A stretch of 64,000 nt of DNA from an uncultured Synechococcales cyanobacterium (GTDB lineage: Bacteria; Cyanobacteriota; Cyanobacteriia; Thermosynechococcales; Thermosynechococcaceae). Position numbers and translations under genes: made by a program. The stretch covers positions 1 through 64,000 of the forward strand of contig CADCWO010000064.1 in the NCBI GenBank assembly GCA_902806435.1, given 5' to 3'. Positions 964-42,512 of this stretch are shown here, piece after piece. How positions within the stretch are numbered: the stretch's first letter is position 1; every line of letters starts with the position of its first letter. Under the pieces are notes generated by a model. It saw only the letters and a list, made by a program, of their open reading frames with translations, had not been told where the DNA came from and did not search any database.

Positions 964-1719
964 TTACTCTCCCAGCCGGTACAACTCCCCAATCATCTCA
1001 AGCGATACCAGAGCAGTTGGCACATCAAACACTATTCGTCCCTGGCGTAAGCCGATGATGCGCTGGCAATGACTCCTGGCAAAGTCAACATCATGGAGGC
1101 TAACGATCAGAGTTCTGCCTGTTTGCTGAGCCAGGTCTCGTAGCAAGTCCATGACCTCGCGGCTTAATTCCGGATCAAGGCTGGCAATTGGTTCATCTGC
1201 CAAAATTATCAGGGGATCTTGCACCAATACCCGTGCCAAGGCCACCCGTTGCTGCTGTCCTCCTGAAAGCTGATCAGTTCGCACATAGAGCTTTTCTAGA
1301 ATCCCCACTTGGGCAAGCGCTTTAGCAGCAGTCTCCACTTCTAGGGGGAATACCAGCGACATCAGTGCTTTCAAGAAGGACCAGTGCCCTAAATGTCCAG
1401 CATTAACGTTGTGAATCACCTGCAGGGTGTCCACCAAATGAAACTGTTGATAGACGGTACCAATTTGCCTTTGCACCCGACGTAATCGACGCGGTTTTAG
1501 CTGAGCAAGATTCTGCCCTAGTGCCCAAACTTCTCCTTGACTCGGTAATAAAGTGCCGTTTAGCAGCCGAATCAAGGTACTTTTACCAGCACCGCTCGGC
1601 CCCACCAAAGCAACTCGCTCTCCAGCGTAAATTTGCAGGTTGAAATCGACTAGTGCTAGAAACCGACCGAACTGTTGAGTCACCTGCTTTAACTCAAAAA
1701 TTGGCTCAGCTTGACTCAT
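964..1719 (-). CDS. phnC: Phosphonate-type ABC transporter ATP-binding protein
   Basis: Cytoplasmic ATPase (251 aa) that energises the neighbouring permease. Walker A GPSGAGKS at about residue 40, ABC signature LSGGQQQR at about 152, Walker B ending LADEP at about 175, and the switch histidine in SLHDVDFA near 207. PhnC family proteins are about 250 aa, so it is full length. The ATG overlaps the stop of phnD by 4 nt (ATGA), a sign of translational coupling, and the permease starts 2 nt downstream. A paralogous phnC lies at 18213-18965 in the second transporter cluster. Confidence 0.93.
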
Positions 1720-2633
1720 TTAATTTTGCCAATCTTCCGACCAATTTGCTCAATTTGAGCATAGTTAGCGTTTTGAGTCGGAATAAACTTCACAGCCCCA
1801 AATAAATCCAAAATTTCTTTCTGCTGTGGCACTTTAGGATCGAGCTTCGTCAGAGCTACCTGCACCCTCCGGGAGAAATCATCTCCATAGCGCTCCTTGA
1901 TGCTGGGATTGATCACCCAGTGGTAGTCGTAATAGGGAGGCGATCGCCAAATAACCTGCACCTTATTTTGATCGACTTCACCTGCTTTTGTGCGACTCAA
2001 CCACACTTGCTCATTTAATACACCCGCGTCATAGGTGCCAGCCTGTACAAGCTGAATCGTGGCATCATGAGACTTGGAAAAACCAGCTTGTCCCTTAAAG
2101 TCTTGTAGTTGCACACCTGCCTGCTCGAGAAAATACTGGGGCATTAAACGTCCAGAAGTGGAGGACTCGCTGCCAAAAGTGAAGGTGCGCCCTTTCAATT
2201 GCGTTAGATCCTTCATAACCTTGATAGAGGCGAGCTCACTCTTTTTGTTAGCAATAAAAACACTATGAAATTGAGCATCAATATCCCGCTGGGCAATCGC
2301 CTCAGCTCCAGGCACCTGCAATCGTGCCTGTACTCCGGTGAGTCCGCCAAACCAGACTATATCCAGGTCTCCCACCTTAAAGGCAGTAACTGCAGCTGTG
2401 TAGTCTGTCACAGGCTTATATACTACAGGCACCTTCAGCTCGGCTTCTAGATACTTAGCTAACTTACTAGAGAGCCGTTGTATCTTCTCCGGATCCTGGT
2501 CAGGAATAGCGCCCATTGTAAAGGGCTTTACTTCTCCAGTGTTAGTTGTAGAGGTGGAGTTAGGGGCAGAAGTACAGGCTGTAACCGGTAATAACAGTAG
2601 GAGTAGAAATCCTGATAATAAAACTTTTTTCAT
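1716..2633 (-). CDS. phnD: PhnD-type substrate-binding lipoprotein (phosphonate or putative selenate)
   Basis: Solute-binding lipoprotein feeding the PhnC/PhnE transporter. I start at ATG 2633, not the longer frame to 2675, because it gives a clean signal: MKK, a hydrophobic stretch, then lipobox PVTAC, so Cys about 20 would be lipidated. The mature part has the PhnD-like type-2 periplasmic binding fold. The early stretch with GAIPDQDPEK and the segment DIVWFGGLTGVQARL resemble the subgroup annotated as putative selenate-binding proteins (from memory), so the substrate may be selenate or another oxyanion. The gene overlaps phnC by 4 nt. No Pho-box-like repeat was recognised upstream. Confidence 0.88.
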   Translation of the reverse strand: MKKVLLSGFLLLLLLPVTACTSAPNSTSTTNTGEVKPFTMGAIPDQDPEKIQRLSSKLAKYLEAELKVPVVYKPVTDYTAAVTAFKVGDLDIVWFGGLTGVQARLQVPGAEAIAQRDIDAQFHSVFIANKKSELASIKVMKDLTQLKGRTFTFGSESSTSGRLMPQYFLEQAGVQLQDFKGQAGFSKSHDATIQLVQAGTYDAGVLNEQVWLSRTKAGEVDQNKVQVIWRSPPYYDYHWVINPSIKERYGDDFSRRVQVALTKLDPKVPQQKEILDLFGAVKFIPTQNANYAQIEQIGRKIGKIK

Positions 2634-2695
2634 GCTGGACCTGTAACTGTGTGGGAGAAGTGATAATGACGGCACCGAGGACTACACGAGCATAA

Positions 2696-18969: not shown

Positions 18970-19845
18970 CTAGCCGAGACGGTGACGTAAAGTAGCACTG
19001 AGGGCATCAATGCTGCTGACCATCACTAGGATCAAGATCAAAATTGTAGCCAGACGCGGGAAATCTAATAACTTCAGGCTAACCATAAGTTCGTAGCCAA
19101 TTCCTCCTGCCCCGACAATGCCAAGAATGACGGAGGAACGGACATTAAATTCCCACAAGTATAAGCTGATACCGATCAGCCCCGGCAAAGCTTCTGGTAG
19201 CACCGCAAAAGCAAAGGTGCGCAGACGGCCAGCCCCAATTGCTTCCACCGCCTCAATCGGCTCCGGGGGTAGAGTTTCTAATACCTCTGCGTAAAGCTTT
19301 GCCATCGAACCTGTGGTGTGGAAGGCGACACCCAATACTCCGGCAAAAGGCCCTAGGCCGACGACGGAGACAAAGATCAAGGCAAAAATAGCTGTGTCAA
19401 TTGCGCGCAGGCCATTTAAGGCAGCTCGCAGCGGGGTTGCTAATAAAGGAAGCGGGGTGATGTTCCGAGCAACAACAACTGCTAGTGGTAGCGCCAGCAC
19501 AATCGCGATAACGGTACCGATAATCGCGATCGCCAGGGTTTCCCAAGTGGCGGAGGCAAAAGCAGGCCACTCCGAAAAGTCTGGCGGCCACAGCCGGACT
19601 AGCCAATCCCCTAAGCGGGGTAAGCCAGACCAAAGTTCCTGGGGCGCAACCTTGGCTTTTTGCACACTAGCAGCTATGACCGCAAATCCCATCAAACCCC
19701 AGAAGCTACGGCGTAGAAAGCGCCCTATCCAGGTGCGTTTGTACCTGGACTTTAAGATTGCCTCAAAATCCGGCGGCGGATGCAGACGCTGGGATGTTGA
19801 GGATGACCCTGGCGGCCTACAGCCCTCCGGGACGTTTCTCGTCAC
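18970..19845 (-). CDS. phnE: Phosphonate-type ABC transporter permease, second cluster
   Basis: Inner-membrane permease of 291 aa, the normal single-domain length. A cytoplasmic N-terminal tail of about 45 residues is followed by about six hydrophobic helices and the BPD_transp_1 signature around GIVGAGGIGYELM (about 245). The start ATG overlaps the stop of phnD by 4 nt. Compared with the left-edge permease, it does not continue into a second domain. Confidence 0.92.
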   Translation of the reverse strand: MTRNVPEGCRPPGSSSTSQRLHPPPDFEAILKSRYKRTWIGRFLRRSFWGLMGFAVIAASVQKAKVAPQELWSGLPRLGDWLVRLWPPDFSEWPAFASATWETLAIAIIGTVIAIVLALPLAVVVARNITPLPLLATPLRAALNGLRAIDTAIFALIFVSVVGLGPFAGVLGVAFHTTGSMAKLYAEVLETLPPEPIEAVEAIGAGRLRTFAFAVLPEALPGLIGISLYLWEFNVRSSVILGIVGAGGIGYELMVSLKLLDFPRLATILILILVMVSSIDALSATLRHRLG

Positions 19846-20807
19846 TTCACTGTACCTACTGATCGTCCTGCCGCCTCAATCGGAGCATAGTTACTGCCAT
19901 CGGACTTGACGAAGCCTGTGTAATTTTGAGGTAACAGCTTTTTAGCTTGCTCTGGGGAAAAGTTTACCAGCACAGTTTGTACTTTGGTTTTAATAGCATC
20001 CGGTAGGCCTCCCCGAACGGCGATCGCATCATTAGGCAAAGGATTGGACTGCCAAATAATTTTCAGTTTTGATTGATCGATCCGTCCTTCGCTGACTAGC
20101 ACATCTAGGTTGCGATCGTAATCAGAGGCAATGTCAGTTTGGCCGCTTAGCACAGCAATTGCTTGGGCGGCATGGCTGGCGCCCTCGTTATAGTCAAAAA
20201 CGGTTTTAGGGTCAATTTGGCGTCGCTTGAACTCTGCTTGGGGAACCAGCCAGCCGGAAGTAGAGCCGACATCCGCCAAGCTGAGCTTGAGTTTCGCCTT
20301 GGTTTGACTTTGACTGATGGCCTGATCTAGGGTATCAAACGGAGCATCCGCCCGCGCCATTAAGACAGCCTGATAGGTGGGCTTATCTTTGTATTTAACT
20401 GTCGCGATCGCCTGGATTGACGGCTCATTATGCTGGGCGAGCACGAACCCCCAAGGCCCCAACCATGCCGCATCTAGAGTGCCAGAGCGTAGAGCTTCTG
20501 AGATGCCCACCCAATCTTCGGTTATGGCAACCTCAGCAGCTGGAAGATTGACCTGCTTTGCCAATTCCTGAAACAGCGGCTCAAACTGTTTACGGTTCTC
20601 ACCAGGGGTCGGGAAGTAAGGGCCAACGCCAAATTTGATCTGCTCTAGCTTTGCCTCGGGAGTTCCCGTTGTGGGAGCTTGTCCTTCAGGGCTACTATCA
20701 GGGCCACCGCTACAGGCAACCACAAGGACTAGGGCCAGTGTTCCTAGAATGATTCTCCGCAGCCAACGGGGAACAAAGTGAATATAATTTTTACTGCGAT
20801 TATTCAT
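19842..20807 (-). CDS. phnD: Phosphonate/phosphite-type substrate-binding lipoprotein, second cluster
   Basis: Start ATG 20807 (a longer frame reaches 20831). The signal is a basic stretch, RRIILGTLALVLVVAC, with lipobox VVAC, so a lipid-anchored binding protein. The mature part (FGVGPYFPTPGENRKQFEPLF, then SGTLDAAWLGPWGFVLAQ) is PhnD/PtxB-like. It overlaps phnE by 4 nt. The substrate cannot be told from sequence; phosphite or phosphonate are the usual choices. No ptxD or C-P lyase gene is in the window. Confidence 0.9.
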   Translation of the reverse strand: MNNRSKNYIHFVPRWLRRIILGTLALVLVVACSGGPDSSPEGQAPTTGTPEAKLEQIKFGVGPYFPTPGENRKQFEPLFQELAKQVNLPAAEVAITEDWVGISEALRSGTLDAAWLGPWGFVLAQHNEPSIQAIATVKYKDKPTYQAVLMARADAPFDTLDQAISQSQTKAKLKLSLADVGSTSGWLVPQAEFKRRQIDPKTVFDYNEGASHAAQAIAVLSGQTDIASDYDRNLDVLVSEGRIDQSKLKIIWQSNPLPNDAIAVRGGLPDAIKTKVQTVLVNFSPEQAKKLLPQNYTGFVKSDGSNYAPIEAAGRSVGTVK

Positions 20808-20889
20808 GCGCTCGATTGTGTCACCTAGCAAAAGCTGCGAGAGCCGGAATGTCTGCTTATCTAGCCTAAAGCAACATGCTTGAGCCTTT

Positions 20890-24008: not shown

Positions 24009-25106
24009 TCAGCACTCAACGCTACTATCTATGTCGCCGTGGCATAGTAACTGCTCTAGTTGAGTAACCCGTTGGGTATACGTATGTTCTGCCAAAACTC
24101 TTCTGCGGGCAGCATCACCGATCTGGCGAGCTCGATCTGGGGTGAGTGACTGTAGCAGTTCAGCTACCTGCTGTCCATTGTGAGCAATCAGGATTTCCTC
24201 GGCTGGCTCCAGGAACTGCTCTATGCCCTGCCAAGGATCGGTGATTAAACAGGCGCCTGCCCCGGCAGCCTCAAATATTCGTGTCGCGGGGGAGAAGCCA
24301 TAGGTGGCCATACTCTGGCGATTAATGTTTAAGACGGCCCGCGAGGAGCAATTGAAAGCATTGTGTTCGCAGGTGCGGACGTGACCAATAAGATGAACAT
24401 TTTGGGGCAGAACTTTATCATCCCAGCCGCTCCCGCCAAGCAAAAATTTACTTGTAGGTATCTGGGCAGCAGCCTTCAGAAGAAATTCCTCAACTCGCGC
24501 TTCACGATCAGGTAAGCGATTGCCTAAAAAGCTAAGATCCGCCGCAAAGCTTGGGTCAGGCCCTACTGGGTAATGAGTGGTGGGGTCCAAGGCATTGTAG
24601 ATAGGTGTACAGCTGTGCGCCCCAAGGCCAGTATAGGCTTCAACTACTGGCGCCCCACCTCCGTAGGTTAAAACCAGGTCATACTGAGGAATCAAAGAGC
24701 GGAAGGGGTCTTTGGGGTTGGCTAGCACCCGATCCAGCGTGGCAGGCGCATCCACGTCCCAAAATCCAATTAGGTTGTTGGCTTGTTTCAGTTCTAGAAC
24801 TGCCGCCTCAAGCAGGGCGTCGAACACCCCGACACCGCTGGCCTTGAGGATCAAGTCAGCACCTCTGGCCTGCTCTAAAGACTGCAATACCCCCGTTTCA
24901 GTGGCTGGATAGACGACAACCCTGGCCCAATCTGGATCGGGAATATCCCGATGAGCTTGGCGGCCAAAGGCATCCGGTTCATAGAAGGTTACTTGATGAT
25001 CGCGATCGCTAAGGGCTCGGATAATTCCTCGGTAATAGGTTGCTGCGCCATTCCAGTAGGCAGAGACTAGGCTAGAGCCGAAAAAGGCGATGTTGAGACC
25101 AGTCAT
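24009..25106 (-). CDS. CgeB-like glycosyltransferase (last gene of glycan operon)
   Basis: A 365-aa glycosyltransferase of the CgeB/DUF3880-type GT-B fold. Characteristic features are NIAFFGSSLVSAYWNGAAT near the start, DADLILKASG, a D-rich middle, a substrate-side LSFLGNRLPDREARV, and the C-terminal nucleotide-binding stretch RIFEAAGAGACLITDPWQGI. It overlaps the upstream gene by 4 nt. A similar motif order occurs in the genes at 25103 and 32114, so these three are paralogs. Donor and acceptor are unknown. Confidence 0.83.
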   Translation of the reverse strand: MTGLNIAFFGSSLVSAYWNGAATYYRGIIRALSDRDHQVTFYEPDAFGRQAHRDIPDPDWARVVVYPATETGVLQSLEQARGADLILKASGVGVFDALLEAAVLELKQANNLIGFWDVDAPATLDRVLANPKDPFRSLIPQYDLVLTYGGGAPVVEAYTGLGAHSCTPIYNALDPTTHYPVGPDPSFAADLSFLGNRLPDREARVEEFLLKAAAQIPTSKFLLGGSGWDDKVLPQNVHLIGHVRTCEHNAFNCSSRAVLNINRQSMATYGFSPATRIFEAAGAGACLITDPWQGIEQFLEPAEEILIAHNGQQVAELLQSLTPDRARQIGDAARRRVLAEHTYTQRVTQLEQLLCHGDIDSSVEC

Positions 25107-26221
25107 GCCAGTAACGCCTCCGCTTGACTTATTTCCTCCAGTTGTCTGTAGATGTGGAGCAATTCATCCACCCGATGAGCACAGGTATGGCGCGCCCGAA
25201 TGGTTTTCAGTCCATGGTCAACCAGAGTCTCGGCCTCGCTAGGATTTGCCAAGAGCCTCTTCAGGTGATGCTGCATAGCCTCCCCCGTAGGAGCTACCAA
25301 GAAGTCTTGACCAGGGGTAAACAGTCCTTCTGCGTCCTGCCAGGGAGCAGAGATCAAGGGAATCCCACAGGCTAGGGCTTCAAAGGGCCGAATTGTGGGG
25401 ATACCCGGTAAAGCGTCAGCATAAGGGCGGCGGGGGACATGAACGGTGACCCGAAAGCGACTAAACACCTGAGGGACTTGGTAGTTCGGTAACCAACCAC
25501 CATACTCAATGCCAGCATCACTCAAAGCTTTCTGGGCAGACTGCGGATAGCGCACCCCATAAACCCGTGCCTTTAGACCAAGCGTTTTGATCGGGTTAAT
25601 TAAGAACTCATCCAGCTCCGCCGTGCGCTCATCATCGCCCCAGTTGCCAATCCAGACCAGATCTCCTTCACACTCAGAAGATCCAATGGGGTGAAAAATC
25701 CGGGTGTCAGCTGCTTCATGCCAGGCCCAGGCTTGCTTGATCCAGCCTTGGGCAAGGTAAAGATCACGAATCACTGCTCCAAAAGCCAATAGGCCATCGT
25801 AATTGGTTAGATCATAGGCTGCCATGCTATCCGGGGCGGTAACCGAACGATGGTGAGTATCGTGGAATATCAGGCGGTAGCTACCTGCCTGGGCTCGGTG
25901 TTGACCAATCTGCTGTACCAGCACCGGATCATTCCACTCATGCACCAGGACGAGATTGGCCCCGGCTAGAGCTTGATCTAGGTCCAGCACTGAAGGGTCG
26001 TAGCGGGTGCTCTGAAGCTGGGGATAGGCTACCTGAAATTCAGCGATCGCGCTATTCCCAGCGTCCGCCAGCAGGTTCTGAAGGCTCCAAGCGTCCTTGG
26101 GTTCATAAACCCGAACTTGATGTCCCCGAGAAAGTAGTTCCGTCGTGATACCACGCAAAAAGTGAGCGTTGCCGTGGTTCCAATCCGACAGCAGGGAATG
26201 GCAAAAAATTACGATCTGCAT
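25103..26221 (-). CDS. CgeB-like glycosyltransferase
   Basis: A 372-aa GT-B glycosyltransferase similar to its neighbours. The start IVIFCHSLLSDWNHGNAHFLRGI and the C-terminal RPFEALACGIPLISAPWQDAEGLF mark the CgeB/GT4-like architecture. It overlaps the downstream gene by 4 nt and the upstream GT4-like gene by 13 nt, so the three GT genes are almost certainly translated from one message. It may act before or after the 24009 enzyme; order cannot be seen. Confidence 0.82.
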   Translation of the reverse strand: MQIVIFCHSLLSDWNHGNAHFLRGITTELLSRGHQVRVYEPKDAWSLQNLLADAGNSAIAEFQVAYPQLQSTRYDPSVLDLDQALAGANLVLVHEWNDPVLVQQIGQHRAQAGSYRLIFHDTHHRSVTAPDSMAAYDLTNYDGLLAFGAVIRDLYLAQGWIKQAWAWHEAADTRIFHPIGSSECEGDLVWIGNWGDDERTAELDEFLINPIKTLGLKARVYGVRYPQSAQKALSDAGIEYGGWLPNYQVPQVFSRFRVTVHVPRRPYADALPGIPTIRPFEALACGIPLISAPWQDAEGLFTPGQDFLVAPTGEAMQHHLKRLLANPSEAETLVDHGLKTIRARHTCAHRVDELLHIYRQLEEISQAEALLA

Positions 26222-27312
26222 AATGATTCTGTTTGAGGTGGCCCAACCGTGGACTGGGTAAGCTCGCCATAGAGCCTCAGATAGCCAGCCGCCATCCGCT
26301 GTGGACTAAATTCCAAGGCGCGATCGCGGGCCTGGGCTGCCAAAGTTTTGCACTGCTCAGGCTGGGCAATCAGGCTTTGCAAGGTGTGCCTCAAGGCTAC
26401 CGGATCATCTGGTGGGACAAACAACGCTGCCTCTGCCCAAAGTTCTCGCAGGCTAGGGATATCCCCCAAGACTAGAGCACAGCCAGATAACCCCGCTTCC
26501 AGAATAGACAGGCCAAAGGGTTCATAGCGGGCGGGCAAGGCATAGATAGTAGCTTTGGCTAACCAGGAGGCTAGGGCCGAAAAAGAGAGGTGGCCCAGCA
26601 GCTGTACCTGCTCAGGTTCTACCGCTCCCCCCTGGGGATGCCGGGGCTCACCGGCAACATAAACTGGCCAGTTCAAATCACCAGCTACCTGGTCGAGGGC
26701 AGATAGATTCTTGGCTTCATCCCATAGCCGCCCCACACTAATAATGCTTTCCGACTTCTCCCCTGGCTTGAAGTGAACCGGATCTCGACCGTTGGGAATC
26801 ACCTGCGCCTTAGGCAGAGGGCCATAATGTCGCTGGAGTAACGCTAGCATGGCTTGGGAAGGGGCAACCACCCGCTCGGCTGCTTGCAATCCATGCGTGA
26901 CGGCATGATGATACCGTCCCCACTCTTGCGGGGCTGCTTCACCTTTAACAGCCTGCCACCAGGAGAGAACACAGGAATGTCCGACTACCAAGACAGGAGA
27001 CTGCCAGTCTAAGGCAGCGTGAACATATCCATTCAGATGCACCACATCCGGCTGAACCTGCGTTTCTAGGTGTAATAACCACTCTCCTGCTTGCTGCAGA
27101 TCAGCCCAGGGCTCGTCCATCCACTCCAACTTGAAGCAGCTCTCTACGATCTCCAGGTGAGGAAGCCGGACTTGCAACCGTTGTTCCTGCGTCAGGGGTG
27201 CTCCCATGGTGGCGATCACCACCTCTACGCCATGACGGGACAAAGCTTCAGCCAGCTCCAGGGCATAGGTCCATACCCCCCCTACAGTGTCGGCGGTCAT
27301 TAAGATCCGCAT
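26209..27312 (-). CDS. GT4-family glycosyltransferase
   Basis: A 367-aa GT-B retaining-type enzyme. The N-terminal MRILMTADTVGGVWTYALE and donor-domain motifs VIPNGRDPVHF, SVGRLWDEAKNL and YEPFGLSILEAGLSGCALVLG (with the E-x7-E-like element) are classic for GT4. It overlaps genes on both sides (13 nt each). Within the cassette it is the enzyme most like capsule or lipopolysaccharide GTs; the sugar is unknown. Confidence 0.88.
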   Translation of the reverse strand: MRILMTADTVGGVWTYALELAEALSRHGVEVVIATMGAPLTQEQRLQVRLPHLEIVESCFKLEWMDEPWADLQQAGEWLLHLETQVQPDVVHLNGYVHAALDWQSPVLVVGHSCVLSWWQAVKGEAAPQEWGRYHHAVTHGLQAAERVVAPSQAMLALLQRHYGPLPKAQVIPNGRDPVHFKPGEKSESIISVGRLWDEAKNLSALDQVAGDLNWPVYVAGEPRHPQGGAVEPEQVQLLGHLSFSALASWLAKATIYALPARYEPFGLSILEAGLSGCALVLGDIPSLRELWAEAALFVPPDDPVALRHTLQSLIAQPEQCKTLAAQARDRALEFSPQRMAAGYLRLYGELTQSTVGPPQTESLCRS

Positions 27313-28580
27313 TGCTCTAGCTGAGGCAGCGGCAGCGGCTGTTCTGACTGAATATCACTAAATTGGGCGTAAACATCTAAATAATAAGCATGGGCACGCT
27401 CCCATGCTTGCTGATCGGGCACCCCCCACTTTTTCATGTAGTCGGGTGACCCAGGATAAGGAAACAGGGGAACGGGCTGGTTCGCCCAGACCCCAAACTG
27501 CTGGAGGTGCTGCCGCCACTGAGTGATCGCTGCCGGGTCATCGACCCGCGATTCCAAAAGATTTGCCTGCACAAAAGGCACCCGCTCTTTGGCGTAGATC
27601 AAGCGATCGCTCAGTTCTAGCGTAGAGAGCTTGCAGTGTTTGTCCAATAGTTGCCGGCCGGCCTCAGTGATGCTTTCCACCCCCGCTTCAATCGAAACAC
27701 AGCCCGCTGCCCCTAATAGATCCAGCATGTCGCGATTCCAGAGGTCAATTCGTGTCTGCACACCAAACTTAACTGGGCGCTCCACCAGGGCTTGCAGCAG
27801 TTCTGGGTTGGGCAGGAAAATTTCATCAATGAAGTAGATATACTCAACCCCTTGAGCCAGCAGCCCATCTAGTTCCTCCAGAATTACTGCCAGGGGACGA
27901 CGGCGATAGCGATCGCGGAAGTTCTGCTTGGCACAGAAGGAGCAACGATAGGGGCAACCGCGAGAAGTTTCCATCTCTGCCCCTGGCCCTGTGGGCACTG
28001 CCTCAAAGCGGTGGTGGTGATGGTGGTGACGCTGAATCATCTCTAGGGGCCAGTGGAGCGCTGGCAGGGCGCTCATATCGGAGGCGTGAGGAATGCCCTG
28101 TACCCGCGGTACTTCTGCTTGCCAGTAGCAAAGGGAAACAACCTGCGGCCAGGGATTGGTCAATTGGGGCAAAATCTCCTCGCACTCACCCAAAATGACA
28201 ACGTCTACGCCCAGTTTCCGCAACGTAGCCTCGGGGGTGGTAGAGCCATGAGGCCCAATTGCCACCAGGGTTCCCCCAACATCCCGCAGATGCTGCACAA
28301 CCATTTGTGGCACCCGCAGTTCTGGGGGGGCACAGCGCCAGAATAGATAGCTGGGGGCAGTCGTGACGACGGTAAAATCTGGCCCAAAGGCAGCAAGGCG
28401 CGATCGCATCTCCTCTAAACTCAGATCTGCTAGTTGGCCATCTACCAGTAACACGTCATGCCCTGCTTGCTCTAGCAGTAGCTTGGCATAGCCATATTCC
28501 AAGGGCAGATGGGGCTCCCGGCAGCCAAAGTAGATGCTGCCCTCAAAGCTCCAATTGGGGTTGATCAAGGCATATTTCAT
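27300..28580 (-). CDS. B12-binding radical SAM protein
   Basis: A 426-aa protein from ATG 28580; the longer frame to 28688 would overlap the upstream gene by more than 100 nt. A cobalamin-binding-like N-terminal domain (about 1-165) precedes the radical SAM barrel, with the cluster motif CPYRCSFC at Cys209, Cys213 and Cys216. It belongs to the BchE/PhpK-like class of B12 radical SAM methyltransferases and related enzymes. The B12 domain lacks an evident DxHxxG motif, so cobalamin may bind in a base-off or histidine-independent way. A natural run of six histidines (about residues 185-190) sits just before the cluster motif. In this operon it may methylate or rearrange a sugar. Confidence 0.85.
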   Translation of the reverse strand: MKYALINPNWSFEGSIYFGCREPHLPLEYGYAKLLLEQAGHDVLLVDGQLADLSLEEMRSRLAAFGPDFTVVTTAPSYLFWRCAPPELRVPQMVVQHLRDVGGTLVAIGPHGSTTPEATLRKLGVDVVILGECEEILPQLTNPWPQVVSLCYWQAEVPRVQGIPHASDMSALPALHWPLEMIQRHHHHHHRFEAVPTGPGAEMETSRGCPYRCSFCAKQNFRDRYRRRPLAVILEELDGLLAQGVEYIYFIDEIFLPNPELLQALVERPVKFGVQTRIDLWNRDMLDLLGAAGCVSIEAGVESITEAGRQLLDKHCKLSTLELSDRLIYAKERVPFVQANLLESRVDDPAAITQWRQHLQQFGVWANQPVPLFPYPGSPDYMKKWGVPDQQAWERAHAYYLDVYAQFSDIQSEQPLPLPQLEQCGS

Positions 28581-30679
28581 CGTGCTCCTCCCCCAGCGAC
28601 TAGCGGCAGGGTAGGTACTCCCCGCGATGAGCGTAACCACTGATATAGGGTTTGGACACCTTGGTACACGCCTATCTGAGGCACCCAACCTGTCGCCCTG
28701 GAAAACTTGCCAATGTCAGCCACGTAGTAGCGTTGGTCACCGGAACGCCAGCGATCAAATTGTACGGGTGGCCTGCTGCCGTGGATCTGCTCAATCAAGT
28801 CAATCAATTCCAGCAAACTAGTTGTACTACTAGGGCCACCCCCGATATTAAACGCCTGACCGCAAAGGCTGCCCATATGATTCTGAGCTAGCAAAAAAGC
28901 ATCTACCAGGTCTTCTACAAATAGAACATCCCGCACCTGCATCCCATCCCCGTACAAGCAGATTGGCTGATCGGCCAAAGCTCGAATCAGAAAATGGGCT
29001 ACCCATCCTTGATCCTCGGTCCCAAACTGGTGAGGGCCATAGATACAGCTCATCCGAAACACGACGGCCGATAGACCAAAGGTGCGAGCATAGTCGAGGA
29101 CATACTGATCTGCGGCGCCTTTGGAGCAACCGTAGGGGCTGTGGAAGGTCAGCGGCTGCTCCTCGCTAATCCCGGCAGCTCGGATTAAGGGGTCCGCTGG
29201 CTGATAGCGCCTGTTATCCAATTGCAATTCAACATCTTCCAGCCCTCCGTAGACTTTGTTGGTGGAGGTAAAGACGAGCGGGGGCGGATTCTCTAAGCTG
29301 CGCAAGGCCTCCAGTAGATTCAAGGTACCCTGGACATTAATTTCAAAGTCATGAACTGGATTTTTCAAGCTGGTGGTTACCGCCACCTGCGCGGCTAGGT
29401 GAAATACTTGCGCTGCTCCCGCCACAGCCTGCCGCAGGGCATAGGTATTGCGAACATCGCCAATTTTAATCTGGAGGCGATCGCCATGCATCTGCCGTAG
29501 CCAGGACAAGTTCTGTTCCACCCCTGGTCGCGAGAGGTTGTCGAACACCAGCACTGGCTGCCCGGCGCTCAGTAAGCGATGGGCCAAGTTGGTGCCAATA
29601 AATCCGGCGCCACCAGTAATCAGCACCGGACGTTCTTCCCGAGAGTTGAGCGAGACAGCCGAGGCAGGCTCCCCCAGCTCTACGATCTGTTGTACGGTTT
29701 CAAAACCTCGCTGTGACCAGAGCCGATAGAGCAGCTTGGGGGTACCATCGGCCTGTTTAAGACCCATGTGATAGTGGCGAACATCGCAGTACAGCCCATC
29801 CTGGGTCGGTACATCAGTGGGCAGATCGTAGCCAGAATACCAGTACAGCCGCTCTACTGGGGCAGCGATCGCTTGCAGAAAAGCCTCAAGCTGGGCATAT
29901 TGATCATGCCGCCAGGTAGAAAACCCCGTTTCCGTAATCCACACCTGTGCCGCTGAGCCATGCTCCGCCATGACTGCTCGCACCTGGGCAACATTTGCGA
30001 CCCACTCTTGCGCATCAAATTCCCAGGTTCCCGGAAAGCCATGGATACCCACGGCATCAATATGAGCCAAAATGCCCCGCCGGGCAATCAAGCGCAGCCA
30101 GTTGAAGTCAATCGGAGCCATGCCAGCCAGAACCGTCTTTTTACCCCGCTGCTGAGACCAGTAAGCGGCAGCGCCGATCATTTCACAAAAAATTTGCCAA
30201 TCGGGATCAAGACGCCAATCCCAGTCCGCCAGATTATTCGGCTCGTTCCAAAGTTCCACCCACTCAAAGTAATCGCCGAACTCTGTAATCATCCCATCTA
30301 GGAAGTCAGCGTAAACTTTGGGGTGCCGGGGGGGTGCTGAGGTTTTAGGCTGAATGCCTAGGGAGGGTGGGGTGTAGTGAAAACAGGGTAGAAGATTGAC
30401 GGATTGCGCCAGTCGCGGCAGCAGCCAGCGATACCATTCCTGCCCTACCGGGGTATGCCAATCGGCCCAGGAAACACCGGTACGAAGTTCCGTAACCCCT
30501 AGGGCTTCTAGATCAATGAGCAGCGACTCCACCCGTTGATGCTCACCTGGCCGGAACCACTCCACCAATCCCAGCAGTGGCCTAACAGAGAAGGTTGAAT
30601 TTAAATTGCGGGCTTCATTTTTGAAGGCACCAACCCCTGTTTCAAAAGGTTGGGATGGTCCGCCATGTTGCTCCCTCAT
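28577..30679 (-). CDS. Fusion: clan GH-A glycoside hydrolase + NAD-dependent epimerase
   Basis: A 700-aa two-domain protein. Residues about 35-330 resemble the GH39/beta-xylosidase-type TIM barrel, with acid/base E146 in LWNEPNN and nucleophile E250 in WITETGFS. Residues about 350-695 are an extended SDR epimerase: glycine motif GGAGFIG at 356-362 and catalytic Y516/K520 in YGCSK. Both active sites look intact. The start ATG overlaps the upstream epimerase stop by 4 nt and its end overlaps the radical SAM start by 4 nt. A hydrolase and a nucleotide-sugar epimerase in one chain suggests turnover coupled to donor synthesis, but this is inference. The GH part has no signal peptide, so it is likely cytoplasmic. 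Confidence 0.86.
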   Translation of the reverse strand: MREQHGGPSQPFETGVGAFKNEARNLNSTFSVRPLLGLVEWFRPGEHQRVESLLIDLEALGVTELRTGVSWADWHTPVGQEWYRWLLPRLAQSVNLLPCFHYTPPSLGIQPKTSAPPRHPKVYADFLDGMITEFGDYFEWVELWNEPNNLADWDWRLDPDWQIFCEMIGAAAYWSQQRGKKTVLAGMAPIDFNWLRLIARRGILAHIDAVGIHGFPGTWEFDAQEWVANVAQVRAVMAEHGSAAQVWITETGFSTWRHDQYAQLEAFLQAIAAPVERLYWYSGYDLPTDVPTQDGLYCDVRHYHMGLKQADGTPKLLYRLWSQRGFETVQQIVELGEPASAVSLNSREERPVLITGGAGFIGTNLAHRLLSAGQPVLVFDNLSRPGVEQNLSWLRQMHGDRLQIKIGDVRNTYALRQAVAGAAQVFHLAAQVAVTTSLKNPVHDFEINVQGTLNLLEALRSLENPPPLVFTSTNKVYGGLEDVELQLDNRRYQPADPLIRAAGISEEQPLTFHSPYGCSKGAADQYVLDYARTFGLSAVVFRMSCIYGPHQFGTEDQGWVAHFLIRALADQPICLYGDGMQVRDVLFVEDLVDAFLLAQNHMGSLCGQAFNIGGGPSSTTSLLELIDLIEQIHGSRPPVQFDRWRSGDQRYYVADIGKFSRATGWVPQIGVYQGVQTLYQWLRSSRGVPTLPLVAGGGAR

Positions 30680-31794
30680 ACGGTTAATCCTCGGCTGGCA
30701 AGTTCTGAGCGAGCTTCTGTAACCCGGTCTAAGGCAACTTGCCCTTCAAGCCAAGCTGCCAGTTCCAGCAAGCCTGTTGATAGCATTACTTGCGGTTGAT
30801 ACCCCAGTACCTGTTGGGCCTGGGTGATATCTGCAAAGCAATGGCGGATGTCCCCCATGCGATATTTGGCGGTGATTTCCGGTTGAATTCCTTCCTTACC
30901 CAACGCCTGAGACACCTGCTCCGCAACCTCTCGAATCGTGTAGTGGTGGCCACTGCCGATATTAAAGACCTGCCCCGCTGCATCAGGAACTTCTAGAGCT
31001 AAGCGGCAAGCTTGAGCAACATCGTACACACTGACAAAATCTCGCTGTTGGTAGCCATCCTCATTGATCAGCGGTGGCTGGTTGTTCAACAATCGCGAAG
31101 CAAAGATCGCTAAAACGCCGGTGTACGGGTTAGAAAGCGCTTGCCGAGTGCCGAAGATATTAAAGAAGCGCAAGGCAACGGTGGGAATACCATAGGCCCG
31201 CCCGATCATTAAGCACATTTGCTCTTGATCAAACTTGGAGAGGGCATAAATCGAAGACAAAGCTGGGGCTTTAGTTTCAGGGGTCGGGACGGGTGTTAGT
31301 ACCTCCCCAACCGCGTTGTGAATTTCCCAGTTTTTGGCCTTTAGTTGGTCGAGACTCCGTTGGACGCCTACTGTCAAGCTCCCGCTGGGTGTCAGGTAAA
31401 GACCTTCTCCGTACAGGCTCATACTCGAAGCGACAATCAGGCGCTCAACTGGCTGCTCAATTAGGGCTTCTAACAGGGTGGCTGTGCCCATATTGTTGAC
31501 GCTGGTGTACTGAGCAATCTCGTACATGCTCTGACCAACGCCAACAACCGCAGCCAGGTGGTAGACGGCATCAATCCCTTTAACAGCCCGCCGCACGATA
31601 TCAGGATCGCGGACATCCCCAATTACCAACTCAATCTCTGAGTCTAAATAGTTGGGCCGTCCAGCCTCTGGCCCATGGACTTGTGGGGTAAGATTGTCCA
31701 GAACTCGAACCTGGTAGCCGTTGGCCAGTAGTTGATCGGCTAAATGTGAGCCAACGAACCCGGCGCCACCGGTGATCAGAATACGTTTACTCAT
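30676..31794 (-). CDS. NAD-dependent epimerase/dehydratase
   Basis: A 372-aa extended SDR (UDP-sugar epimerase-like) starting at ATG 31794; the frame to 31914 adds 40 residues without the family. Glycine motif GGAGFVGSH at about residue 8 and catalytic YALSK at about 178. It is the first gene of the cassette operon and overlaps the fusion gene by 4 nt. It probably makes a sugar-nucleotide donor for the GTs. Confidence 0.86.
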   Translation of the reverse strand: MSKRILITGGAGFVGSHLADQLLANGYQVRVLDNLTPQVHGPEAGRPNYLDSEIELVIGDVRDPDIVRRAVKGIDAVYHLAAVVGVGQSMYEIAQYTSVNNMGTATLLEALIEQPVERLIVASSMSLYGEGLYLTPSGSLTVGVQRSLDQLKAKNWEIHNAVGEVLTPVPTPETKAPALSSIYALSKFDQEQMCLMIGRAYGIPTVALRFFNIFGTRQALSNPYTGVLAIFASRLLNNQPPLINEDGYQQRDFVSVYDVAQACRLALEVPDAAGQVFNIGSGHHYTIREVAEQVSQALGKEGIQPEITAKYRMGDIRHCFADITQAQQVLGYQPQVMLSTGLLELAAWLEGQVALDRVTEARSELASRGLTV

Positions 31795-32113
31795 ACCCAG
31801 CGATCCAAGATGTCTAGAGTCAAGATCTGTCCTTGGCAAATCCTTGCCGTAAAAAGTGGAATCTTCAGAGCGTGATAGCTTTAATAGGCTTGAGAGCTGC
31901 AGAATAAAAAACAAGCAATTCTAAGCTAATTTGACAGTAAATATCCCCTTATTCAACAGTCTTAGGATAGATTAAAGGGTTTTTCCCAATACTTAGGCTG
32001 AGCGATCGCTTAGACTCCTAGTAAAGTTTGGCGAACTGTTTAGGGCCACTTTTTGAAGATGTTGTAGAGCAGGCGCAAATGAGCAGGCATCATCAATACA
32101 CGAGGCTGAGCCC
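31795..32113. promoter_or_regulatory. Divergent promoter region of the glycan cassette
   Basis: About 320 nt between the first minus-strand gene (start 31794) and the divergent CgeB-like gene (start 32114). AT-rich around 31900-31980 (many A/T runs) and with a GCGATCGC copy near 32000. A shared regulatory region for both transcription units is likely; I see no defined operator. Confidence 0.45.
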
Positions 32114-33178
32114 ATGCTGAAAATTATTATCCTGGGCCTGTCGATCACCTCCTCCTGGGGCAACGGCCATGCCACTACCTACCGGGGATTAGTGCGGGAA
32201 CTTTCTCAACGAGGACATCAGGTATTGTTTCTAGAGCGGGATGTTCCCTGGTACGCCGCCCAGCGGGATTTACTTTCTCCCCCTGGCGGGCGAGTCGAAT
32301 TGTATACCAGTCTGCCAGAGCTCAAACGCTTTACTCAAGAAGTCCAAGCCGCCGACCTAGTGATCGTCGGGTCCTATGTCCCGGAAGGCGTGGCGGTTGG
32401 GGAGTGGGTTACGAAGACTGCCCAGGGGATAACTGCCTTTTACGACATTGATACCCCGGTAACCCTGGCAAAGCTAGAACAAGGTGATACAGAGTATCTC
32501 TGTTGTGAGCTGATTCCCCGCTATCACTTGTACCTCTCCTTTACAGGAGGCCCCATCCTTAACTGGATTGAGAAGCACTATGGATCACCGATGGCACGGC
32601 CTCTCTATTGTGCGGTCGATCCGTCACTCTACTACCCAGAAGCAACCGAGCCCAGGTGGGATTTGGGATACATGGGAACCTACAGCGATGACCGCCAACC
32701 GGTATTAGAGCGACTGATGCTTACACCCGCTCGCCAGTTACAGACGGGTCACATGGTTGTGGCCGGACCGCAATACCTTGCGGATATTCAGTGGCCTCAA
32801 AACGTAGAGCGAATTGAGCATCTTCCTCCGGCTGAGCACCGCACTTTTTATAATGCCCAACGATTTACCCTCAATGTCACCCGGGCGGATATGGTACGGG
32901 TGGGCTATGCTCCCAGTGTGCGCCTATTTGAAGCGGCTGCCTGCGCTACGCCAATTATTAGTGACTACTGGCAGGGGCTAGAAAGCTTTTTTGAGCTGGG
33001 TTCAGAGATTTTAGTCTCTAATTGCGCAGCAGACACCCTGCGCTACTTGCGCCAATTGCCAGATGACGAGCGGCTGGCTGTTGGAGCGCGCGCACGCCAA
33101 CGAGTTTTGTCTGCCCATACCGCAGCTCACCGCGCTGCTGAATTGGAACAGTATGCGATCGCAATTTTAGATGCCTGA
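32114..33178 (+). CDS. CgeB-like glycosyltransferase, divergent from the cassette
   Basis: A 354-aa GT-B protein: IIILGLSITSSWGNGHATT at the start, LDYPEATEPR-like middle, and RLFEAAACATPIISDYWQGL near the end. It is closely similar in layout to the gene at 24009 and less so to 25103. It faces the other way from the six-gene operon but shares the 320-nt divergent region, so it likely belongs to the same system. ATG start at 32114. Confidence 0.82.
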   Translation: MLKIIILGLSITSSWGNGHATTYRGLVRELSQRGHQVLFLERDVPWYAAQRDLLSPPGGRVELYTSLPELKRFTQEVQAADLVIVGSYVPEGVAVGEWVTKTAQGITAFYDIDTPVTLAKLEQGDTEYLCCELIPRYHLYLSFTGGPILNWIEKHYGSPMARPLYCAVDPSLYYPEATEPRWDLGYMGTYSDDRQPVLERLMLTPARQLQTGHMVVAGPQYLADIQWPQNVERIEHLPPAEHRTFYNAQRFTLNVTRADMVRVGYAPSVRLFEAAACATPIISDYWQGLESFFELGSEILVSNCAADTLRYLRQLPDDERLAVGARARQRVLSAHTAAHRAAELEQYAIAILDA

Positions 33179-35794: not shown

Positions 35795-36964
35795 ATGAAA
35801 GCTGTTTGCTGGCAAGGCGCTAACCAAGTGCAGGTAGAGACGGTTCCAGAGCCGAAGATTCTCAACCCGCGTGATGCCATTCTTAAAGTTACATCAACGG
35901 CAATTTGTGGCTCTGATTTGCATATCTACGGCGGTTATATTCCCACAGTCCAGAAGGGTGACATTATTGGTCACGAATTTATGGGAGAAATCGTCGAAGT
36001 TGGTAAAGGAGTAAATACTTTAAAAGTAGGCGATCGCGTAGTCGTACCTTCAACTATCGGCTGTGGTAACTGCTTCTACTGCCAACGGGATATGTGGTCG
36101 CTATGCGATAACTCCAACCCAAACGGCTGGATGGAAGAAAAACTGTGGGGTAATATCACCTCTGCGATTTATGGCTACTCCCACTTATTAGGCGGCTATG
36201 CAGGCGCTCAAGCTGAATATGTCCGCGTACCTTTTGCCGATGTCGGTGTCGTCAAAGTCCCTAAAGACATACCAGATGAAAAGTTGTTATTTATTTCAGA
36301 TGCTATCCCCACTGGCTATATGGGCGCAGAGTTATGCCATATTCAACCAGGAGATACCGTAGCTGTCTGGGGTTGTGGCGCAGTGGGTATATTTGCCATG
36401 ATCAGTGCCTACATGATGGGTGCAGAACGCGTTATCGCGATTGACCGCTTTCCAGAACGTTTAGAAATGGCCAAAAAACACGCCAAGGTCGAACTTATTA
36501 ACTACGAAGAAGTTAGTGCTGGGGATGCGCTTAAGGAAATGACGGGCGGACGTGGCCCCGATGCTTGTATTGACGCAGTAGGCTTAGAAGCACATGGCGT
36601 GGGTATAGAAGACTTCTATGACCAGACAAAACAAAAGTTAAAGCTAGAAACAGATCGTCCTCACGTTTTACGAGAAATGATGGTTGCTTGTCGTAAAGGC
36701 GGCACACTATCAATCATGGGAGTGTATGGCGGCTTCGTAGACAAACTCCCAATTGGTGCAGTCATGAATAAGGGCTTAACTTTGAGATCGGGGCAAATGC
36801 ACGGTCAGAAGTATATGCATAAGTTACTGGATTTGGTTTTAACTGGAGAACTCGATCCTTCTTTTGTGGTTACCCATCAATTACCGCTAGAACAAGCGCC
36901 TCACGCCTACAAGATTTTTCAGCAGAAACAAGACAACTGCATCAAGGTTGTACTCAAACCATAA
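35795..36964 (+). CDS. Zinc-dependent alcohol/formaldehyde dehydrogenase (copy 1)
   Basis: A 389-aa MDR-family dehydrogenase. Catalytic zinc ligands C and H lie in [10 protein letters not shown] and [12 protein letters not shown]; the structural zinc loop has four Cys in [15 protein letters not shown]; the NAD-binding motif is GCGAVGIF. Most like glutathione-independent formaldehyde dehydrogenase-type enzymes; substrate not certain. It and the next gene are recent duplicates (very similar ends, [11 protein letters not shown]). The leader has a tandem heptamer repeat. Confidence 0.9.
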
Positions 36965-37064
36965 AAGAGTCTTTTGTCCTTAGTTATTAGCAATCACACT
37001 ATAGATAGGCCTTGCTCGGTTTTCCATAGGGTAAGACTTAGGGAGGGGAGAATTGTGTGCTAAC

Positions 37065-37110
37065 GATTAATGACCAATGACTAATGACCAATAATTAAGG
37101 ACTAATAATC
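37065..37110 (+). repeat. Degenerate heptamer repeats upstream of second dehydrogenase
   Basis: Six or seven imperfect heptamers of the type CCAATGA/CTAATGA/CCAATAA/CTAATAA, ending directly at the ATG of the second dehydrogenase (37111). The unit is related to the ATTACTA of the first copy (both TAATnAn-rich), suggesting that the leader was duplicated or that repeats settle in such leaders. Confidence 0.75.
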
Positions 37111-38280
37111 ATGAAAGCAGTTTGCTGGCACGGCACTAACGATGTACGGGTCGAAACAGTCCCCGATCCCAAAATCATTAACCCGCGTGATGCAATCATC
37201 AAAATCACGTCGACCGCGATTTGCGGTTCTGATTTACATCTTTATGACGGCTACAACCCAACGATGAAGTCAGGGGACATCCTAGGCCATGAATTCATGG
37301 GAGAGGTTGTCGAATTGGGTAGCGCTGTCAAGAACGTCAACATAGGCGATCGCGTTGTTGTCCCTTTTACCATCTCCTGCGGATCGTGTTTTTTCTGCCA
37401 AAAAGATTTGTGGTCACTGTGTGATAACTCTAACCCCAACGCTTGGATGGTGGAAAAAATCATGGGTTACTCGCCCTCTGGTCTTTTTGGCTACTCCCAT
37501 TTGACGGGTGGTTACGCCGGCGGTCAAGCAGAATATGCCCGGGTACCCTTTGCCGATGTCGGTTTATTTAAGATTCCTGATGGGCTGACAGACGAACAAG
37601 TCTTATTTCTGACAGATATTTTCCCCACCGGTTATATGGCAGCAGAAAACTGCGACATCGAGCCCGGAGATACTGTTGCAGTCTGGGGCTGTGGACCAGT
37701 CGGACAGTTCGGCATTAGAAGTGCCTATATGCTAGGTGCAGAGAGAGTAATTGCAATTGACCGAGTTCCTGAACGCCTGAAAATGGCTAAGGAACAAAGT
37801 AAGGCAGAAGTCATTAACTATGAGGAAGTAGATGCAGGTGAAGCCCTGAAGGAGATGACAGGGGGGCGCGGTCCTGATTCTTGCATGGACGCTGTAGGAA
37901 TGGAGGCACACGGCACGGGCTTAGAAGGATTCTACGACCAAGCAAAGCAAGCAGTGCGTCTAGAAACAGATCGGCCTACTGCCCTGCGGCAAGCGATCGT
38001 TGCCTGTCGTAAAGGTGGGACTGTATCAGTGCCTGGTGTTTACACTGGCTTTGTAGACAAGATACCGATGGGTGCTTTCATGAATAAAGGTTTGACAATG
38101 AAAACAGGGCAAACGCACGTTCATCGGTACTTCCGCCCATTACTCGAACGCATCCAAAATGGCGAGATCGATCCCTCTTACATAATTACCCATCGCTTGC
38201 CTTTGGCGAAAGCACCCCACGCCTACGAGATCTTTAAGCACAAGAAGGACAACTGCATCAAGGTTGTGCTCAAGCCTTAA
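37111..38280 (+). CDS. Zinc-dependent alcohol/formaldehyde dehydrogenase (copy 2)
   Basis: A 389-aa paralog of the preceding gene and of equal length. It keeps [22 protein letters not shown], the four-Cys loop [15 protein letters not shown] and NAD motif GCGPVGQF. Both copies appear intact. The 146-nt gap between them is filled by a short leader and heptamer repeats. The neighbours (SRPBCC pseudogene, DJ-1/PfpI tail, GST, peroxiredoxin pseudogene) suggest aldehyde or oxidative-stress detoxification. Confidence 0.9.
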
Positions 38281-41642: not shown

Positions 41643-42512
41643 ATGGTTAAGTCTGGTGCCTTGTATGCGGTTCTCGCCTACACAGCTTGGGGTTTGCTAC
41701 CAATTTACTGGAAGTTTTTTGGACAGATATCAGCGGTTGAAGTACTGAGCCATCGCGTCATCTGGTCGATGGCTTTCCTAGCTGGGCTACTGTTTCTCCA
41801 ACGACGAGGCTCAGAATTCAGTCAACTTTTGGACTCTCCAACCCACTTGAAAATACTACTGGCAACTGCTTTGTTGCTCACCTTCAACTGGGGGCTCTAC
41901 ATCTTTGGAGTTAATAGTGCTCGAGTGGTTGAAACAAGCTTGGGTTACTTCATTAATCCACTTGTGAATGTCTTGCTAGGGTGTGTGTTTCTCAAGGAGC
42001 GGTTAAATCATGCTCAAACACTGGCTGTCCTATTAGCTGGAATTGGCGTTGCTCAGTTTATCTGGCATTTTGGACAAGTGCCCTGGCTTGCTTTGGGGTT
42101 AGCGTTTTCCTTCGCCTTCTACGGTCTGCTGCGTAAGGTGGTGGCAGTTGGTCCAATGGTAGGATTAGCGGTTGAAACACTGCTGATTGCGCCTGTGGCA
42201 TTGATCCTGGTTGGATACTGGGCTGCGACTGGCGCCGGACATTTAGGTGTGGCTTGGTCTACATCACTTTTGTTGATTGGGTCTGGCGTCATGACCTCGC
42301 TACCACTTCTCTGGTTTAACAATGCCGCCAAACGGCTACGGCTTTCTACCTTAGGTTTTTTCCAGTACATGGCTCCAAGCCTACAGCTGATGCTGGGGGT
42401 ATTGCTCTACCATGAACCCTTTACCCGTACCCATGCTGTTACCTTTGGCTTAATCTGGTTAGCGCTCCTCATCTACTCCACAACCTCGTTGTCTACTCAA
42501 CGGTCTAGCTGA
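41643..42512 (+). CDS. rarD: RarD/EamA-type transporter
   Basis: A 289-aa inner-membrane protein with ten hydrophobic helices and two EamA units, starting at ATG 41643 (MVKSGALYAVLAYTAWGLLPIYWK), the usual RarD opening. The TTG at 41595 gives a 16-residue polar leader and is rejected. RarD family proteins are drug/metabolite transporters of uncertain substrate; some export amino acids or chloramphenicol-related compounds. Monocistronic, between the peroxiredoxin pseudogene and the convergent cobL. Confidence 0.9.
   Translation: MVKSGALYAVLAYTAWGLLPIYWKFFGQISAVEVLSHRVIWSMAFLAGLLFLQRRGSEFSQLLDSPTHLKILLATALLLTFNWGLYIFGVNSARVVETSLGYFINPLVNVLLGCVFLKERLNHAQTLAVLLAGIGVAQFIWHFGQVPWLALGLAFSFAFYGLLRKVVAVGPMVGLAVETLLIAPVALILVGYWAATGAGHLGVAWSTSLLLIGSGVMTSLPLLWFNNAAKRLRLSTLGFFQYMAPSLQLMLGVLLYHEPFTRTHAVTFGLIWLALLIYSTTSLSTQRSS

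Follow-up and report, generated by a model that had tools for sequence, protein, structure and literature searches.

The window analysed here, a 64,000-nt stretch of DNA from an uncultured Synechococcales cyanobacterium, contains at positions 24009-33178 a cassette of seven genes, all of which are present with intact reading frames (Table 1). With refined starts, the six minus-strand genes are chained by overlaps of 4, 4, 13, 13 and 4 nt, namely EPI2 with the hydrolase-epimerase gene (30676-30679), the latter with the radical SAM gene (28577-28580), the radical SAM gene with the GT4 gene (27300-27312), GT4 with CgeB2 (26209-26221) and CgeB2 with CgeB1 (25103-25106). The start of EPI2 was set at MSKRILITGG, where the Rossmann motif begins (the listed ORF, which extends to a TTG at 31914, is over-extended), and that of the radical SAM gene at MKYALINPNW. 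The chain of 4- or 13-nt overlaps described in the initial annotation is thus borne out; the seventh gene does face the other six, albeit across 319 rather than the reported 320 nt. This divergent region presumably holds the promoters of both transcription units. An Rfam search gave no match in it, neither a B12 riboswitch nor any other known RNA, and a scan for sigma-70-like promoters found no scored match in the gap, with a region-wide count below that of shuffled sequences.

Table 1. Genes and intergenic region of the cassette, in coordinates of the window.
Feature	Position	Strand	Evidence
EPI2, SDR nucleotide-sugar 4-epimerase-like, 372 aa, operon gene 1	30676-31794	-	PF01370, 1.2e-51
GH-EPI1 fusion, 700 aa: N-terminal (beta/alpha)8 glycoside hydrolase plus CDP-tyvelose/paratose 2-epimerase-like SDR	28577-30679	-	PDB match and model
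B12-binding radical SAM enzyme (rSAM), 426 aa, CPYRCSFC cluster motif	27300-28580	-	TIGR04295
GT4-type glycosyltransferase, 367 aa	26209-27312	-	PF13439, PF13692, PF00534
CgeB-type glycosyltransferase C2, 372 aa	25103-26221	-	PF13524, 1.1e-37
CgeB-type glycosyltransferase C1, 365 aa	24009-25106	-	PF13524, 2.1e-40
CgeB-type glycosyltransferase C3, 354 aa, inverted in the window	32114-33178	+	PF13524, 7.2e-37
Divergent intergenic region, 319 nt	31795-32113	.	gene starts

Pfam and NCBIfam searches agree with the gene contents originally proposed: three CgeB-type (PF13524) and one GT4-type glycosyltransferase, a TIGR04295 protein and two SDR epimerases. As a point of wording, the single polypeptide comprises the hydrolase and the epimerase; the radical SAM enzyme is encoded by its own gene. 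The reported lack of a flippase, polymerase or Wzz gene was also upheld, in that the Pfam scan of window proteins (30 of ~45 ORFs, cassette neighbours included) returned no Wzx, Wzy or Wzz and no ABC-2 exporter or initiating phosphoglycosyltransferase.

The PDB relatives of EPI2 are UDP-sugar 4-epimerases (e.g. 4zrm) and an epimerase-family protein (6wjb). Over its whole length the EPI1 part of the fusion protein can be aligned to CDP-tyvelose 2-epimerase (292 bits to 9rl0, E 5e-86, and 291 bits to 1orr, both at E ~1e-85), and it retains the active-site motifs STNKVYG and SPYGCSKGAADQY, which places it in the CDP-tyvelose/paratose 2-epimerase family and suggests that its substrate is probably a CDP-sugar. 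On the other hand, EPI1 is joined to a hydrolase, and neither a CDP-glucose 4,6-dehydratase nor tyvelose/paratose genes adjoin it. No Pfam match was obtained for the N-terminal 335 aa of this protein. The region was modelled (pLDDT 75) as a full (beta/alpha)8 barrel, closest to PslG/GH39 (Z 23.9, the best PDB match) and to GH1 glucosidases, with catalytic Glu residues E146 (NEP), following the beta4 strand (140-143), and E250 (TETG), within the beta7 strand (245-251). Terminal Glu residues on strands beta4 and beta7 of such a barrel mark clan GH-A, to which the predicted structure assigns the domain. PslG, from the Psl system of Pseudomonas aeruginosa, shares the barrel, the NEP acid/base and the second Glu, and is likewise a hydrolase tied to glycan biosynthesis; however, it is only 20% identical to the window domain, which is fused to an epimerase and has no Psl locus around it.

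The radical SAM protein matches TIGR04295 (B12_rSAM_oligo) over the entire profile (1-422 of 422) with 735.3 bits against a cut-off of 400, and is therefore a member of the NCBI family that the initial annotation had mentioned as occurring near oligosaccharide genes. The three cysteines of its CxxxCxxC cluster motif (C209, C213 and C216) are invariant in 38 sequences and follow an N-terminal Rossmann domain of B12 type, an arrangement that defines class B radical SAM enzymes; the Pfam B12-binding match scores 28.4 bits, under the cut-off of 32.1. The model (pLDDT 90) superimposes over 343-385 residues on OxsB (Z 27.1), TsrM (27.0), MgmA (25.8) and AprD4 (25.6). These enzymes and CysS have in common with it the CxxxCxxC motif and the two-domain fold over almost the full length (Z 24-27), whereas sequence identity is 13-20% and their substrates differ. 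By this structural analogy, the most likely reaction would be C-methylation of a sugar, a candidate assignment only, since the fit of the fold to the radical SAM dehydratase AprD4 is nearly as good as that to the methylases.

Each CgeB-type transferase belongs to an orthologous group of its own. Across phyla the members of these groups are 46-75% identical to the window proteins (46-75% for C2, 53-72% for C1), as opposed to ~25-33% among the three paralogs of one genome, and the three enzymes therefore likely make different linkages. In relatives C3 is the last gene and lies on the same strand as the others, and in one cyanobacterium (genome G062, locus L051) it forms a single open frame with a TIGR04290 methyltransferase.

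Occurrence of the same gene set in conserved order elsewhere had been proposed as a check, and it was found, colinear across phyla. A genome scan returned 34 loci, of which 32 have a full or nearly full radical SAM gene flanked by cassette genes and another is truncated at a contig end; a plasmid search added 11 records, and one distant radical SAM match (27%; L040) was left out. Among the 38 scored loci (~38 other than the window), the order EPI2-EPI1-rSAM-GT4-C2-C1-C3 is exact in both sequence and strand in 24, while 13 have colinear subsets (cut by a contig end or missing one gene) and one has C1 and C2 swapped, so that 37/38 are colinear with the core order or a subset of it. The shared gene order is well beyond chance. 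The carriers belong to Acidobacteriota, Pseudomonadota, Myxococcota, Planctomycetota and Cyanobacteriota, and plasmids carry the cassette as well. With few exceptions the core begins with EPI2 in the relatives; EPI1 is absent from 6/38 loci, and its reaction is therefore dispensable in places or supplied from elsewhere. The idea was to be dropped if homologs turned up just singly and without a shared context, or if the genes corresponded to a named pathway. Neither was the case, and the set resembled no O-antigen or capsule locus that has a name.

The hydrolase takes two forms among the relatives. A fusion like that of the window is also found in L044, L047 and, as judged by colinear hits, L035. 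A stand-alone hydrolase, present in 28 loci, is a circular permutant of the window domain: it starts 7 residues ahead of the NEP motif of beta4, passes through beta7 and closes with beta1-beta3, and both catalytic Glu residues are kept in every complete permuted copy (27). Where a permuted copy coexists, the unpermuted domain (fused or adjacent) has lost both Glu residues (L013, L020 and L009, the permuted copy of the last being in L054); where the examined stretch shows no permuted copy (the window, L035, L044 and L047), it is intact. The residue pattern thus suggests that each pathway retains a single hydrolase activity, with the exception of a planctomycete locus, in which no hydrolase was seen.

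Most relatives carry additional genes, including the added methyltransferase that the initial annotation had advised looking for, which is of the TIGR04290 (meth_Rta_06860) family. Together with the hydrolase it forms a second module, often with inositol-phosphate synthase, phosphatase, nucleotidyltransferase and a fourth CgeB, which is either attached to the cassette or located elsewhere in the genome. On annotated plasmids with the cassette (from Azospirillum, Bradyrhizobium sp. 195, Tistrella and a Geminicoccaceae) the extras are varying subsets of inositol-3-phosphate synthase, histidine phosphatase, fourth CgeB, nucleotidyltransferase, TIGR04290 methyltransferase, 'beta-xylosidase', phosphopentomutase and UDP-glucuronate decarboxylase; no exporter, polymerisation or initiating-transferase genes lie beside these plasmid cassettes. 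The myo-inositol-3-phosphate synthase and phosphatase are encoded at 13 loci and, in addition, by two unlinked modules. In five genomes without the module at the cassette, methyltransferase and hydrolase are paired elsewhere (in two of these with inositol synthase and phosphatase), and the association of TIGR04295 with TIGR04290 is therefore functional rather than mere linkage. TIGR04290 is present in 21/23 cassette genomes, the window genome and Mojavia being the two in which it was not found. Of 289 alphaproteobacterial genomes, 13 have TIGR04295, 14 have TIGR04290 and 13 have both (Fisher p 1.2e-21, a nominal value because the genomes are related).

In alphaproteobacteria the cassette often carries a promoter signal of the general stress response. 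We searched for the EcfG consensus, GGAAC-N16-CGTT (PMC7083833), with spacers of 15-18 allowed. The search covered 20 alphaproteobacterial loci, where the 200 nt preceding each inositol synthase or EPI2 gene were examined. Perfect matches were found at 11/20 loci (12/33 upstream regions), starting 58-136 nt before the first gene; 500 mononucleotide shuffles gave a mean of 0.09 and a maximum of 2. These loci are not independent, six being from Bradyrhizobium, but matches also occur in Azospirillum, Rhodoplanes, Xanthobacteraceae, Acetobacteraceae and Siccirubricoccus. Azospirillum sp. SYSU D00513 has a match at the cassette and again at the separate second module; the match at the separate inositol-synthase operon of L055 lies 98 nt upstream. 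Judged by these motifs, the alphaproteobacterial cassette would belong to the EcfG general stress response. EcfG is known from alphaproteobacteria and is not expected in the cyanobacterium, for which a stress role would be carried over from the alphaproteobacterial relatives.

The window cassette is a minimal version, with a fused, intact hydrolase, the last gene inverted and neither methyltransferase nor inositol synthase (the latter not detected in the window genome with a query that lacked a positive control). Its G+C content is 54%, compared to 49% in the remaining window, and 28 other genomes of the same family lack the cassette, which was therefore probably acquired. The cassette occurs in 2/292 sampled cyanobacteria, the window's own genome counted, and three cyanobacterial radical SAM sequences form one supported clade (97/94), which fits a horizontal acquisition of the reduced version by a few cyanobacteria.

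Taken as one unit, the seven genes would make a short, non-polymeric hetero-oligosaccharide assembled in the cytoplasm, or a small molecule carrying it, for stress protection, a reading to which we give a probability of about 0.5. EPI2 and EPI1 would supply sugar donors through 4- and 2-epimerisation, and the TIGR04295 enzyme would alter a sugar via cobalamin-dependent radical chemistry. The GT4 enzyme may begin the chain on a small acceptor, C2, C1 and C3, being non-redundant, would each add one further unit, and the hydrolase domain may trim, recycle or transglycosylate the oligosaccharide. In most relatives the TIGR04290 methyltransferase would cap or decorate the product, its target probably being the unit added by C3, the transferase with which it is fused in one cyanobacterium, and the inositol and xylose modules may lengthen it. 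A small oligosaccharide or glycoconjugate, as read initially, remains the best reading; genes for export or lipid linkage may be located in another part of the genome. A broader proposal is more tentative, and we hold it at somewhat below even odds. It envisages a so far undescribed pathway, shared between phyla, for an intracellular oligosaccharide that is modified by radical chemistry (C-methylated or C-branched), often bears a methyl cap and serves the general stress response; plasmids and horizontal transfer would have spread this pathway, which would be minimal in a few cyanobacteria.

Several other products were considered. The inositol synthase and phosphatase of the relatives, together with the similarity of the radical SAM model to AprD4, would also suit a cyclitol- or aminoglycoside-like secondary metabolite, in which an inositol-derived core would receive sugars from the glycosyltransferases and the radical SAM enzyme would resemble the paromamine dehydratase AprD4 or a GenK-type C-methylase in its action. 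Such a metabolite is unlikely, as no inositol synthase of this type was found in the window genome or at acidobacterial loci, the cassette has no aminotransferase, and stress promoters and conservation across phyla differ from what is typical of antibiotic clusters. We consider a glycolipid head-group pathway, e.g. for a glycosylated membrane lipid, slightly less probable still: the cassette has no conserved gene for lipid modification, although membrane association is common for GT4 and CgeB transferases and hopanoid synthesis is possible in 16/23 carriers. Hopanoid glycosylation was rejected as a general explanation; squalene-hopene cyclase is absent from 7/23 cassette genomes (one of them 99% complete), and a hopanoid is therefore not the universal anchor.

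The least probable alternative is a conventional surface-polysaccharide (O-antigen, capsule or EPS) or LPS-core locus. GT4 transferases and epimerases are typical of such loci and PslG, the nearest relative of the hydrolase domain, serves an exopolysaccharide system, but the gene content of the cassette is uniform across phyla whereas O-antigen loci vary. An O-antigen or capsule locus was rejected on the lack of wzx/wzy/wzz, ABC-2 exporter and initiating-transferase genes among the scanned window proteins and beside the plasmid cassettes.

A functional parallel to the preferred oligosaccharide is provided by the mycobacterial methylmannose and methylglucose polysaccharide clusters, which make a cytoplasmic, non-exported oligosaccharide with a methyl cap and have a dedicated hydrolase in the operon. 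The likeness is one of operation and implies no homology; these clusters are not known to have a B12 radical SAM enzyme or CgeB transferases. TIGR04295 and TIGR04290 themselves are NCBIfam families without assigned function. In the open-access literature we found no paper naming either of them, and nothing relevant on CgeB and stress or on EcfG with inositol or radical SAM. The whole cluster, its two modules, their co-occurrence, the stress promoters and the hydrolase forms thus appear undescribed within the sources searched.

The presence of the complete cluster on defined plasmids makes its deletion and assay straightforward. If correct, the proposed pathway would assign a role to two orphan NCBI families that many soil bacteria carry, and point to a new class of stress-protective sugar made via B12 radical chemistry. 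For agronomic alphaproteobacteria, Azospirillum and Bradyrhizobium among them, it would provide a testable output of the general stress response.

The stand-alone 'beta-xylosidase' genes of the related loci L008-L046 encode a (beta/alpha)8 glycoside hydrolase that is a natural circular permutation, with an identical breakpoint in all 27 complete copies and with both catalytic Glu residues retained in each of them (27/27). Where this permuted hydrolase occurs together with its unpermuted homologue (the domain type fused to EPI1 in the window), both Glu are gone from the latter.

At L051, the cassette locus of the cyanobacterial relative G062, the CgeB transferase C3 and the TIGR04290 methyltransferase share a single open frame, a fusion tying the two functions together. 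Elsewhere in L051, shortened EPI2 and hydrolase genes run into each other, residues 112-243 of EPI2 being followed immediately by the hydrolase from residue 178 on, which reflects either decay of the cassette or a fault of assembly.

Coordinates of the features discussed (residue length in brackets)
Feature	Location	Strand	Source
Permuted hydrolase (example)	L043:8481-9431		
C3-TIGR04290 frame (636 aa)	L051:5261-7168	minus	cyanobacterium G062
EPI2-hydrolase join	L051:17500-18400		G062
Phosphonate-type ABC transporter substrate-binding protein (Pfam)	1716-2675		window
The same type (from appearance only)	19842-20831		window
Zinc-dependent alcohol dehydrogenase, tandem duplicate	35795-38280		window
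tRNA call, four-base anticodon (gaaa)	42140-42231		window

The ARAGORN tRNA call lies within an EamA transporter ORF and is probably a false positive. The tandem dehydrogenases are similar to the glutathione-dependent formaldehyde dehydrogenase type, and a gene so named is likewise close to the cassette on a Geminicoccaceae plasmid (L047). The flanks of the plasmid cassettes (L042, L043, L044 and L047) contain Ku/LigD, manganese catalase, sigma factor and terminal oxidase genes, with a potassium channel gene nearby, surroundings resembling stress islands.
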